Both the position numbers and the translations under genes were made by a program. 64,000 bases of DNA from contig NZ_CP007145.1 in NCBI RefSeq assembly GCF_000576555.1, positions 3,162,001-3,226,000 on the forward strand. The letters run 5' to 3'. How positions within the stretch are numbered: the stretch's first letter is position 1; every line of letters begins with the position of its first letter. Below are positions 39,222 through 42,210 of this stretch, one piece after another. This stretch comes from Hymenobacter swuensis DY53. GTDB taxonomy: Bacteria > Bacteroidota > Bacteroidia > Cytophagales > Hymenobacteraceae. The notes under the pieces were generated by a model. That model saw nothing but the letters and a program-made list of their open reading frames with translations, had not been told where the DNA came from and ran no database searches.

Positions 39222-39321
39222 CTTTCAGGGCTTTTAAAACACCTCCCAATCTTCCGCCATGACCTCCCAGTTACCGTTTACAAAATCCGATTAATCCGTC
39301 GAATCCGCTTCAATCAGTGAG

Positions 39322-39329
39322 TATCTTTG
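39322..39329 (+). promoter_or_regulatory. -7 promoter element that sets the rlmD start
   Basis: TATCTTTG is an exact TAnnTTTG element. It lies inside the longest possible reading frame (from the GTG at 39317), so the real start must be downstream. The next in-frame start, GTG at 39335, is where transcription itself should begin. Confidence 0.55.
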
Positions 39330-39334
39330 CCCTT

Positions 39335-40744
39335 GTGAGGAAATCAGTTAAAAACATCCCGGCGGAACTGCTCCGCGAAGTCGAAATCACCGACATGGTG
39401 GCCGAGGGCAAGTGCCTGGTGCGCCGCGAGAACCTGGTCATCTTTGTCACGCAAGTGGCCCCCGGCGACGTGGTGGACCTGCGCGTGACCAAGGCCAAAA
39501 AGAACTTTCTGGAAGCCGTGCCCACGCACTTCCACAAGTACTCCGAGCTGCGCGTGCAGCCGTTCTGCGAGCATTTCGGCACCTGCGGCGGCTGCAAGTG
39601 GCAGCACCTGGGCTACGAAACCCAGCTCAAGTTCAAGCACCAGCAGGTGGCCGACACGCTGCAGCGCATCGGCAAAGTGGCCCTACCAGAAATCCTGCCG
39701 ATTCAGCCTTCCCCCGACCAGACCTACTACCGCAACAAGCTGGAGTACACCTTCAGCCACAACGGCTGGCTCACCAACGAGCAGATTGCCAGTGGCCACA
39801 ACTACGAGCGGCGCGTGCTGGGCTTCCACACCCCCGGCCGCTTCGACAAGATTCTCGACATCAACCACTGCTGGCTGCAGCCCGACCCCAGCAACCAGAT
39901 CCGGCTGGCCGTGCGCGACTATGCCCTGGAGCACGACCTGCCCTTCAACAACCTCGTGACCCAGGAGGGCTTCCTGCGCAACCTCATCATCCGGACGGCC
40001 AACACCGGCGACCTGATGGTGATTTTGCAGTGCTACTACGCCCACGACGCGCTGGTGCCGCTGCTGGACTACCTGCACGAGCGGTTCCCGCAAATCACCT
40101 CCCTTAACTACGTGCTCAACGACAAGGGCAACGAAACCTTCCACGATCTGGAAGTGGTGTGCTACAAAGGCGAGCCGCACATTCACGAGGAAATGGAAGG
40201 CCTGCGCTTCCGCGTCGGCCCGAAATCCTTCTACCAGACCAACTCCGACGGCGCCTTCAACCTCTACAAAATCACCCGCGACTTCGCCCAGCTCACCGGC
40301 ACGGAGCTGGTGTATGACCTCTATACCGGGGCCGGCACCATCGCCAACTTTGTGGCCCGGCAGGCCAAGCACGTTGTGGGCGTGGAATATGTGGAATCGG
40401 CCGTGAAGGACGCCTACATCAACTCCGAAATCAACGGCACCACCAACACCGAGTTCTACGCCGGCGACATGAAGGACGTGCTCAACGCCGAGTTCATTCA
40501 GAAGCACGGCCGCCCCGACGTGGTCATCACCGACCCACCCCGCGCCGGCATGCACCCCGACGTAGTGGCCCGCCTCCTCGAAATGCGCGCCCCCCGCATC
40601 GTCTACGTCAGCTGCAACCCCGGCACCCAGGCCCGCGACCTGGAGCTACTGGACGAAGCGTATAAAGTGGTGAAAGTGCAGCCCGTAGACATGTTCCCCC
40701 ACACCCACCACGTGGAGAATGTGGTGCTGCTGGAGTTGCGGTAA
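39335..40744 (+). CDS. rlmD: 23S rRNA (uracil-1939-C5)-methyltransferase
   Basis: From the GTG at 39335 the protein has 469 residues: an N-terminal TRAM RNA-binding domain, an iron-sulfur cluster segment (Cys78, Cys84, Cys87 in C-x5-C-G-G-C), and a class I methyltransferase domain with D-P-P-R-A-G-M and the nucleophilic Cys427 in V-S-C-N-P-G-T. It methylates uracil in 23S rRNA using SAM. The start is chosen because a TATCTTTG promoter box (39322-39329) overlaps the alternative start. Its last 66 bases (40679-40744) occur again at 41202-41267, see the mosaic locus. Confidence 0.93.
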   Translation: MRKSVKNIPAELLREVEITDMVAEGKCLVRRENLVIFVTQVAPGDVVDLRVTKAKKNFLEAVPTHFHKYSELRVQPFCEHFGTCGGCKWQHLGYETQLKFKHQQVADTLQRIGKVALPEILPIQPSPDQTYYRNKLEYTFSHNGWLTNEQIASGHNYERRVLGFHTPGRFDKILDINHCWLQPDPSNQIRLAVRDYALEHDLPFNNLVTQEGFLRNLIIRTANTGDLMVILQCYYAHDALVPLLDYLHERFPQITSLNYVLNDKGNETFHDLEVVCYKGEPHIHEEMEGLRFRVGPKSFYQTNSDGAFNLYKITRDFAQLTGTELVYDLYTGAGTIANFVARQAKHVVGVEYVESAVKDAYINSEINGTTNTEFYAGDMKDVLNAEFIQKHGRPDVVITDPPRAGMHPDVVARLLEMRAPRIVYVSCNPGTQARDLELLDEAYKVVKVQPVDMFPHTHHVENVVLLELR

Positions 40745-40756
40745 GATTCAAACGCT

Positions 40757-41110
40757 ATGCTGACCCACGAGAAGCTGGATTTTTATGCGCGCTATAGGGG
40801 CACTTGGGACAACTGGCATCGTGGTATGTATTTCCTGCAGGCAGCAGAGCCTAACCTATTGGAGGATGACGAGTGGATATCGATTCACAACAGCGTACAC
40901 AACTTGTATCTCATTGACAACGGGCTGGCAGCAAAATCATATATAACCGAGCTTGAGGCCAACGTATCGGCCCTTTGCGAGGACTCCACAGTTGTGCAAA
41001 AGATGCGAGAACTAGTCCCTTACCAATATGGTCTCTGGGACCAAAAAATCTCACCGGAACAATCTTTGCCGAAACGATTTGTTGACTGGGTATTTCGTCT
41101 GTTTGCCTAA
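40757..41110 (+). CDS. Small hypothetical protein, cassette gene 1
   Basis: A 117-residue acidic protein starting 13 bases after the rlmD stop. No signal peptide or membrane helix is seen; aromatic residues are frequent (W-D-N-W-H-R near 17-22, W at the end) and the middle looks helical. I do not recognise the family. Codon use is more AT-rich than in rlmD or thiL (many ATA, AAT, TTG and AAA codons), pointing to separate ancestry. Size and context are like those of immunity or defence accessory genes, but that is only a possibility. Confidence 0.6.
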   Translation: MLTHEKLDFYARYRGTWDNWHRGMYFLQAAEPNLLEDDEWISIHNSVHNLYLIDNGLAAKSYITELEANVSALCEDSTVVQKMRELVPYQYGLWDQKISPEQSLPKRFVDWVFRLFA

Positions 41111-41129
41111 TACCTTCAGCCTGCTAAAT

Positions 41130-41267
41130 ATGGACTACACCAACGCCCCCGAACTGAACGGCAAATACCTCGGTACCATCACCAAGGACTTTACAGAGTT
41201 GCAGCCCATAGATATGTTCCCACACACCCACCATGTGGAGAATGTGGTGTTACTGGAGTTGCGGTAA
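41130..41267 (+). pseudogene. In-frame chimera: head of the 41673 gene joined to the tail of rlmD
   Basis: 46 codons including the stop. Codons 1-21 (41130-41192) match the first 21 codons of the gene at 41673 with 3 differences in 63 bases. The last 22 codons with the stop (41202-41267) match the end of rlmD (40679-40744) with 6 differences in 66 bases. Nine bases bridge the two parts and the frame is kept. It is too short to be functional as either parent and marks the junction between two cassette units. Confidence 0.85.
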
Positions 41268-41271
41268 TATT

Positions 41272-41700
41272 ATGAAAAGTTATACCCTAGCTTCTACACT
41301 CGCATTATTGTTGGGCTGGGGTACAGCTATGCTTTTTCATGTATTTTATTCATTGATAACTGGCGGCAATTTGGAGAGTGCTGATACTACCGTTGTGGCA
41401 TTTTGTTCGTTCGTTTTCATGATGCTGGCCAATGGGCTCTTTGTGCAATGGCCAGAGAAATACATAAGTCGGTATTGTCGTTCACATACCCAAACCACCT
41501 TCTTGTTTGCCTCAGTGGCTTATGCACTAGTAACATTCATTGTGCTAATTGGCTGGCTTTTTCTGAGCACTGATTTCTGGATAGTATATATAGACGCAGC
41601 TATCATCGGTTTAGGATACGGCTTTTGCTTTCCACGTTTCTGGAAGCATTCCTTTCCCCATAAAACTTCATCATGGATTACACCAACGACCCCGAACTGA
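41272..41700 (+). CDS. Small four-helix membrane protein, cassette gene 2
   Basis: This 142-residue hydrophobic protein has about four membrane helices (near 5-25, 38-58, 73-98 and 103-122) and a short basic loop after the second. It starts 4 bases after the chimera's stop, and its end overlaps the start of the next gene by 28 bases in another frame. AT-rich codon use differs from the flanking housekeeping genes. Family not recognised. An upstream in-frame ATG at 41233 lies inside the rlmD-tail copy and is rejected. Confidence 0.65.
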   Translation: MKSYTLASTLALLLGWGTAMLFHVFYSLITGGNLESADTTVVAFCSFVFMMLANGLFVQWPEKYISRYCRSHTQTTFLFASVAYALVTFIVLIGWLFLSTDFWIVYIDAAIIGLGYGFCFPRFWKHSFPHKTSSWITPTTPN

Positions 41701-42047
41701 ACGGCAAATACCTCGGCACCATCACCAAGGACTTTGCTACCGTTTCCGATACGCTGAGCGAGGCTTCCTCGCAGATCCGCAAGCGGGATATTTCCAAGTA
41801 TCCCATCTTCGTGTTTGCCCGCCAGGAGGTGCCGCTGGGTGGCCTGCTCATCAACGCCGACGAGCTGAACCTGGAGTGGCACGTATTCGCCAGCTACCTG
41901 GAGCTGTTCGTGCAACAGGGCATCGTGGGCCAGGACGGCATCGAAGCCTTCCAAAGCACCTACCGCGACGCCGACGAGTACTGCTGCCTCTTCGTGCTCG
42001 ACGAGGAGTTCACCAACTTCGTCTACATCCCTTACCCGGAGGATTAG
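41673..42047 (+). CDS. Conserved hypothetical protein downstream of rlmD
   Basis: A 124-residue acidic soluble protein (start M-D-Y-T-N-D-P-E-L) rich in aromatic residues, with no signal peptide. GC content and codon use match rlmD and thiL, so it is probably an old resident gene; its first 21 codons are copied in the chimera at 41130. The function is not recognised. The C-terminal part (E-Y-C-C-L-F-V-L-D-E-E-F-T) looks like a small alpha/beta fold. It overlaps the preceding membrane-protein gene by 28 bases, which suggests insertion right up to its start codon. Confidence 0.75.
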   Translation: MDYTNDPELNGKYLGTITKDFATVSDTLSEASSQIRKRDISKYPIFVFARQEVPLGGLLINADELNLEWHVFASYLELFVQQGIVGQDGIEAFQSTYRDADEYCCLFVLDEEFTNFVYIPYPED

Positions 42048-42048
42048 C

Positions 42049-42210
42049 TGTCATTGCGAGCCGGAGGCGAAACAATCCTTCCTTTTCAGAGTGACAAGCC
42101 TTGAGAAATGAAAAGCCCCTGACGCCAGAGCTAGGCATCAGGGGCTTTTCAGTATGTCAAAAATACGCGCCCAGAAAAGGAAGGATTGCTTCGCGCTGCT
42201 CGCAATGACA
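42049..42210. repeat. Type D inverted-repeat pair flanking a terminator
   Basis: Left arm TGTCATTGCGAG (42049-42060) and CAATCCTTCCTTTTC (42073-42087) pair exactly with CTCGCAATGACA (42199-42210) and GAAAAGGAAGGATTG (42174-42188). Between arm parts the bases differ. The terminator at 42111-42149 lies in the middle, so the element surrounds it symmetrically. Confidence 0.7.
42111..42149. terminator. Bidirectional terminator between the rlmD locus and thiL
   Basis: AAAAGCCCCTGA pairs with TCAGGGGCTTTT, with inner GCC/GGC pairing around the loop. A- and T-tracts at both ends suit the converging transcripts. Confidence 0.85.

Follow-up and report, generated by a model that had tools for sequence, protein, structure and literature searches.

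The interval between rlmD and the gene directly 3' of it in Hymenobacter swuensis DY53 is probably an exchange slot resembling a minimal mobile element, in which cassettes are exchanged by recombination at the ends of the flanking genes, occasionally stack in tandem, and show a bias towards orphan immunity. The interval lies in a 64,000-nucleotide (nt) stretch of contig NZ_CP007145.1 (positions 3,162,001 to 3,226,000), hereafter called the window; coordinates are positions within the window, and the gene directly 3' of the slot is labelled D. Exchange at the slot is well supported. For the two small genes in the slot of the window, gene 1 and gene 2, we infer an immunity function.

The array of the window comprises, in order, rlmD, gene 1, a head copy of D, a tail copy of rlmD, gene 2 and complete D, all on the forward strand. 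The left flank, full-length rlmD (39317..40744), is an open reading frame (ORF) of 475 amino acids (aa) whose name was carried over from an earlier, sequence-only reading of this DNA; its tail (40679..40744) was the reference for the tail copy. Unit 1 consists of gene 1 (40757..41110; family 9, 117 aa, guanine-plus-cytosine (GC) content 47.7%, no predicted membrane helix) and its 3' spacer (41111..41129). The 63-nt head copy (41130..41192; 95% identity to the local D, Ala at codon 6), a 7-nt joint (41193..41199) that matches neither rlmD nor D, and the 68-nt tail copy (41200..41267; 91% identity to the local rlmD, sharing the frame of the head copy) together form one short open frame. Unit 2 is gene 2 (41272..41700; family 0, 142 aa, GC 42.4%, four predicted membrane helices), followed by the right flank, D (41673..42047; 124 aa). 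The earlier reading had proposed this five-part order, which was confirmed with corrections to the start of gene 2 (ATG at 41272), the length of the tail block and the 7-nt joint. The final codons of gene 2 overlap the D head (41673-41700) in another frame, and several other cassettes likewise end there in another frame (C-terminus ...TPTTPN or similar); the C-terminus of such a cassette is therefore partly encoded by the first codons of D.

The head copy matched the local D with E 2e-23 and the tail copy matched the local rlmD with E 2e-22. Against the whole genome, the joint region matched itself, the D head and the rlmD tail, and otherwise one 22-base stretch (E 0.19). These results indicate that the array is real and that the copies are not due to chance. 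Our recount agreed with the differences given earlier, 6/66 bases for the tail and 3/63 for the head; five of the former are synonymous, the other changing Val to Ile, and two of the latter, giving 7/9 synonymous changes in both copies together (P 0.0005 under random change). Each of the six tail-copy variants also occurs in functional rlmD genes within Hymenobacter, the least common in 1/116. These two findings partly favor the earlier proposal that the copies diverged within functional genes elsewhere; its donor lineage, however, cannot be named from such short copies. The tail copy differs at 6 positions from the local rlmD and at 4 from the closest one, that of G075, and the head copy at 3 from the local D and at 2 from the closest one, that of G030.

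Gene 1 and gene 2 fell into separate ORF clusters and are unrelated, as had been claimed. The gene 1 family with the same 3' spacer (near-identical in G075, mostly alike in G012) occupies the same place in G075 and G012, both close relatives. Unit 1 therefore looks inherited within the small clade of the window, G075 and G012, and the view that gene 1 is foreign and arrived recently was not upheld. Comparison of the rlmD-thiL region across relatives, proposed as a check, revealed that the five-part arrangement is not fixed: G075 carries a gene 1-family single unit, while the window and G012 carry unit 1 plus differing second genes.

We searched 120 Hymenobacter genomes, one per species, and D was present in 118. 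The locus set comprised the 116 genomes in which one contig carries both rlmD and D, namely loci L111-L227 minus L185 and L206 (without rlmD), plus the window; L028 (G003) was omitted, being without rlmD. In L227, D lies at the end of a contig and just its start is seen, and the matches in L226 were fragmented. An ORF of at least 80 aa occupied the slot in 110/116 genomes; the remainder were five intervals below 250 nt and one with shorter ORFs only. The intervals measured below 250 nt in 5 loci (two with a 56-aa ORF), 250-649 nt in 86 and at least 650 nt in 25. Clustering of 160 ORFs of at least 50 aa (phmmer, E <1e-5, single linkage) gave 46 clusters, 36 of which have an ORF of at least 80 aa in genus loci; some singletons and reverse-strand ORFs among them may be spurious. 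The 116 genomes showed 49 content states, that is, differing cassettes between rlmD and D, compared between species rather than strains. Mean slot GC content was 41.9% in single-unit intervals, versus 60.0% in rlmD. Single-ORF units were co-directional in 78/85 cases, and in 61/78 the longest ORF started within 25 nt of the rlmD stop. The near-empty, single-unit and multi-unit forms and the dozens of gene types bear out the earlier description of a slot with exchange at gene ends and stacking.

The rlmD-D adjacency extends beyond the 116 genus loci. We hand-picked 40 of 84 same-family genomes over five other genera; rlmD lay within the stretch in 39/40 and adjoined D in these 39, the 40th stretch being too short. 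In four of these genera the rlmD-D interval was -5 to 188 nt in 30/32 genomes, with exceptions of 304 and 561 nt, and in the fifth all 7/7 readable genomes were occupied (511-2912 nt). As controls, D and thiL were adjacent in 20/20 close genomes with gaps of 133-457 nt, and thiL and the next gene in 11/20 with gaps of 163-283 nt; beyond thiL and its neighbor, synteny with the window was lost. The gene 5' of rlmD adjoins it in only 9 loci, so an upstream control was unusable.

Slot content was mapped on a tree from about 1200 nt of rlmD, with the 3' end excluded, and compared with 200 shuffles. The 49 states required 88 changes, versus 94.1 when shuffled (standard deviation (sd) 2.1, minimum 87), while a control trait, residue 4 of D, required 7 changes versus 53. 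Single families were likewise near the shuffled values (family 0, 15 vs 16.0; family 5, 8 vs 7.9). Identical states were found in 1/1 pair above 98% rlmD identity, 1/27 at 96-98%, 9/91 at 94-96% and 7/127 at 92-94%, and, among more distant pairs, in 13/177 at 90-92%, 45/794 at 85-90% and 202/4908 at 75-85%. The distribution of cargo on the rlmD tree is close to random, but not completely so.

A blastn search with the rlmD ends and D starts of all genomes (E up to 1e-3) revealed relics of head or tail in 15/25 intervals of at least 650 nt versus 0/91 others. The best pieces all lay on the forward strand, with heads of up to 94 nt, mostly from the first base of D, and tails of up to 135 nt. The head is followed directly by the tail in the window, L121, L139, L141 and L166; at the other relic loci the head runs straight into another gene, L217 having a separate tail too. 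The joint point is common to the window, L121 and L139 despite different genes, the copies being decayed in L121 and L139. Ala at D codon 6 was seen by eye in 5/15 head copies versus 2/116 D genes (P 0.0002), and also in the decayed L121 head, outside the 15 counted; this excess hints at a common origin of several head copies. In G012, a decayed head below the blastn limit (alignment z 4.9) lies between the gene 1 relative and a family 5 gene. The family 12 ORFs of L128 and L130 start with about ten codons of the D head fused in frame; here, the relic provides the start of the cargo gene. We also considered the head-tail fusion as a functional peptide and thought this unlikely, as the joint has a stop in L139 and an indel plus a stop in L121.

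We propose that a unit is a short gene starting near the rlmD stop and ending near the D start. Incoming chromosomal DNA would recombine in the common rlmD and D ends, and a double crossover would replace the unit. A crossover at one end with illegitimate joining at the other would instead keep the old unit and leave a head-tail joint, as the anatomy of the array suggests. Alternatively, Campbell integration of a tail-gene-head circle would yield rlmD-gene-head-tail-gene-D. Both routes give the observed order, and the data do not separate them. Later recombination between the short repeats could collapse an array, and the relics may be short because longer repeats were lost through recombination.

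Two pairs of loci illustrate possible exchange tracts. L191 and L201 have a common family 4 gene; the last 600 nt of their rlmD are 91-100% identical versus 75-95% further in, to be read against a generally more conserved rlmD end, and the first 300 nt of D are 89-96% identical. L145 and L183 have a common family 8 gene with about 90% nt identity; identity is 77% in the last 100 nt of rlmD, and high identity extends about 60-80 nt into D before falling. The DNA route might be natural transformation. A ComEC-type protein was found in 19/19 genomes searched (13 of them Hymenobacter) and in 10/14 controls, Escherichia coli included; its presence permits, but does not show, natural transformation.

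The tested cargo is largely confined to the slot. Searches of the 120 genomes covered the family of gene 2, families 5, 6, 2 and 4, Imm33 and Imm21, but not GIY-YIG or acyltransferase, and a slot hit was defined as lying on D's contig within 4 kilobases (kb) of D. For these seven families, 62/64 matches were in the slot (gene 2's family 13/13, family 5 9/9, family 6 10/10, family 2 15/16, family 4 9/9, Imm33 4/5, Imm21 2/2), as were all four strong matches of gene 1. Among about 5.8 billion proteins, gene 2 matched 7 and gene 1 matched 5 including itself. In plasmid and phage collections neither D nor gene 2 had a match, nor did D in viral contigs. The ratio of nonsynonymous to synonymous divergence (dN/dS) was 0.19-0.28 for gene 1 (three slot relatives) and 0.21-0.24 for gene 2 (two slot relatives, from a longer ORF that begins further upstream), and across 17 families no within-family pair with dS <1 had dN > dS. 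On the exchange-slot reading, the pool is old, evolves under purifying selection, keeps largely to the slot where tested, and has a bias to orphan immunity.

We scanned 136/139 genus slot ORFs of at least 80 aa with Pfam (E up to 0.01), the window ORFs being scanned apart. Matches were obtained to GIY-YIG (16), acyltransferase (10), Imm33 (4), Imm21 (4), colicin immunity (1), DUF2721 (2), DDE transposase (1) and M57 peptidase (1), and most ORFs were unmatched. For Imm33, Imm21 and colicin immunity, representative proteins exceeded the respective Pfam cut-offs. No family named as a toxin was matched in the 136 ORFs, where GIY-YIG and peptidase domains could be effectors in principle; no secretion or named effector family was matched in the slot, and no slot locus had an array with two recognised immunity genes. 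The families listed for the 136 ORFs also included no integrase or recombinase, tyrosine recombinases among them; mobility matches were limited to the DDE transposase, with one match each to an ISAs1 and an IS1380 model. The earlier guess of an immunity function therefore applies to a small share of the pool, through Imm33, Imm21 and colicin immunity. Genes 1 and 2 most likely encode immunity-like proteins, and gene 2 might perhaps act against a membrane-active toxin. It is possible, and we suggest it tentatively, that the slot represents a balanced polymorphism, in which dozens of unrelated, long-lived immunity 'idiomorphs' would be kept in many species simultaneously by frequency-dependent selection through rivals' toxins and reshuffled by recombination at the rlmD and D ends. 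Each cell would have one or a few of them, each genome being a near-random draw from a genus-wide repertoire.

Several observations weigh against an exchange slot with an immunity bias. On the side of exchange, a weak phylogenetic signal is left, because the count of 88 changes is lower than the shuffled mean by about 3 sd, and states were shared by 9/91 pairs at 94-96% identity versus 202/4908 at 75-85%. Agreement of distances next to the slot was r 0.53, barely less than the 0.56 of the lowest window elsewhere in rlmD. Cargo dS usually exceeded rlmD dS, which codon bias may have lowered, and cargo was clearly younger than rlmD (dS <0.6 of that of rlmD) in 3/527 within-family pairs; therefore, recent exchange between sampled species is rare and the pool seems old. 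Moreover, thiL was found in 92/122 genus stretches, many stretches ending shortly after D, and the D-thiL gap was 15-495 nt in 79/92 loci but enlarged to 1.1-1.4 kb in 13/92 (e.g. L144, L147, L163), big enough for an extra gene, so that rlmD-D is perhaps not the sole variable interval. As to confinement, slot members had served as seeds for five of the seven families, unlike the two Imm models. Gene 1 also gave weak matches (E 6e-6 to 8e-4), 11 in all and spread over 10 other genomes; of these matches, 10 fell outside the slot, and the remaining one (G098:C560:8480) is situated about 1 kb upstream of D. On the side of immunity, only 9/136 slot ORFs matched immunity families, and the GIY-YIG nucleases and acyltransferases numbered 16 and 10. 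In the genus search, Imm33 exceeded the cut-off in 5/5 genomes and Imm21 in only 1/2 (G085). Neither gene 1 nor gene 2 had a Pfam match, gene 2 reaching only NCBIfam models far below the cut-off; their structure models had low confidence (predicted local distance difference test 62 and 58, respectively); and no cognate toxin was identified.

One rival accepts the same exchange slot and regards the cargo as a mixture of accessory genes that turn over fast and have no function in common, with immunity genes a minority by chance. The variety of GIY-YIG, acyltransferase, M57 peptidase and DDE transposase matches and the unmatched majority of the ORFs agree with it. In contrast, three separate immunity families within one small locus, the location of 6/7 Imm33 and Imm21 matches of the 120 whole genomes in the slot, and the resemblance of the small, mostly co-directional genes to described orphan-immunity genes are at odds with chance, and we regard this rival as rather unlikely.

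Homing is quite improbable as the driving force. GIY-YIG genes, among the most frequent occupants, would then act as homing endonucleases, opening the slot and driving exchange, with the other genes as passengers; 11 ORFs weakly matched a group I intron endonuclease model (best E 3e-4), but 100/116 genomes, including the window, have no GIY-YIG-cluster gene in the slot. URI is another name for GIY-YIG domains. According to a survey, URI-type nucleases occur as toxins of polymorphic systems (PMC3482391), so GIY-YIG cargo may have a role other than immunity or homing. In another rival, an interval with one gene was duplicated in tandem on the spot and then decayed, so that the repeats stem from the local gene ends and both genes were inherited. 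This rival would suit copies 91-95% like the local genes and a unit 1 common to close relatives, but is highly improbable given the unrelated clusters of genes 1 and 2, the predominance of synonymous changes, the lack of unit 2 in G075, the different second gene in G012 and the near-random turnover on the tree.

Some further observations concern the surroundings and the cargo. Gene D matched no Pfam or NCBIfam family above the cut-off. A 21-nt inverted repeat (95%) lies 3' of D (42067-42087 and 42174-42194) and resembles dispersed palindromic repeats; similar repeat-like stretches adjoin GIY-YIG genes in some slots, as judged by eye. Weak gene 1 relatives (L233, L234, L235, L237, L239) are single small genes between larger genes elsewhere. 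By eye, those of L237 and L239 lie between MotA/ExbB-type and OmpA/MotB-type genes, and that of L235 adjoins the first type; such sites are possibly further slots. No adjacent toxin was seen by eye near the 7/11 weak relatives inspected, where no family scan was made. The sole non-slot Imm33 match, L278 (G055:C1:714236), lies beside PAP2-phosphatase and coproporphyrinogen-oxidase-like genes, by eye, and no toxin was recognised nearby in the same inspection, again made with no family scan. A PDB sequence search with four profiles gave nothing meaningful. Matches of family 5 to designed TIM barrels over 21-22 residues (E 2e-4 and 7e-4) were dismissed as chance, and the PADLOC matches were weak (best E 7e-4) and were not used.

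If the exchange-slot reading with its immunity bias is right, the slot of any Hymenobacter genome could serve as a trace of toxins encountered by its lineage, and the cargo provides a list of candidates for new immunity families. A conserved gene pair would, moreover, be able to act as a genus-wide exchange slot without an integrase, with stacking intermediates preserved as head-tail joints. The reading predicts that strains of one species differ at the slot. No paper on the rlmD-D locus or on Hymenobacter orphan immunity was among the open-access matches listed, which does not show absence from print.

The slot can be compared with several known systems. Replacement flexible genomic islands have different content at one address, for which exchange by homologous recombination is proposed (PMC4033161). 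The islands described there are large and serve exposed structures, whereas the Hymenobacter slot mostly holds one small gene. For the type VI secretion system immunity arrays of Vibrio cholerae, homology-facilitated illegitimate recombination, with one-sided homology and illegitimate joining, was proposed for stacking (PMC5361080). Those arrays lie in secretion clusters with effectors, in contrast to the slot, which has no matched secretion or named effector family. The hosts of rAID arrays and of the slot both belong to the Bacteroidota. In Bacteroidales, rAID orphan-immunity arrays are described as co-oriented short genes with orphan immunity (PMC12247911). The rAID system has a tyrosine recombinase, whereas none was recognised among the slot ORFs, which are flanked by two conserved genes. 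Polyimmunity loci bring several unrelated immunity genes together with no toxin genes between them, and Imm33 and Imm21 appear in the survey of them (PMC3482391). The Hymenobacter slot usually has one or two genes per genome, with its diversity spread between genomes, and most of its families are not known as immunity. The slot also differs from integrons, having no integrase family among its 136 ORFs.

A minimal mobile element is not known to carry a mobility gene of its own, and the Hymenobacter slot, with one DDE transposase match in 136 ORFs, fits this description. In Neisseria, such an element consists of two conserved genes with different whole-gene cassettes exchanged by homologous recombination (PMC3082526). 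For the Hymenobacter slot, recombination in the flanks is proposed from sequence comparison; agreement with the tree along rlmD and D showed no general fall there. Both share a conserved gene pair with varying whole-gene cassettes; the Hymenobacter slot is set apart by its span over a genus, by tested cargo that largely keeps to one address, and by its tandem head-tail relics.

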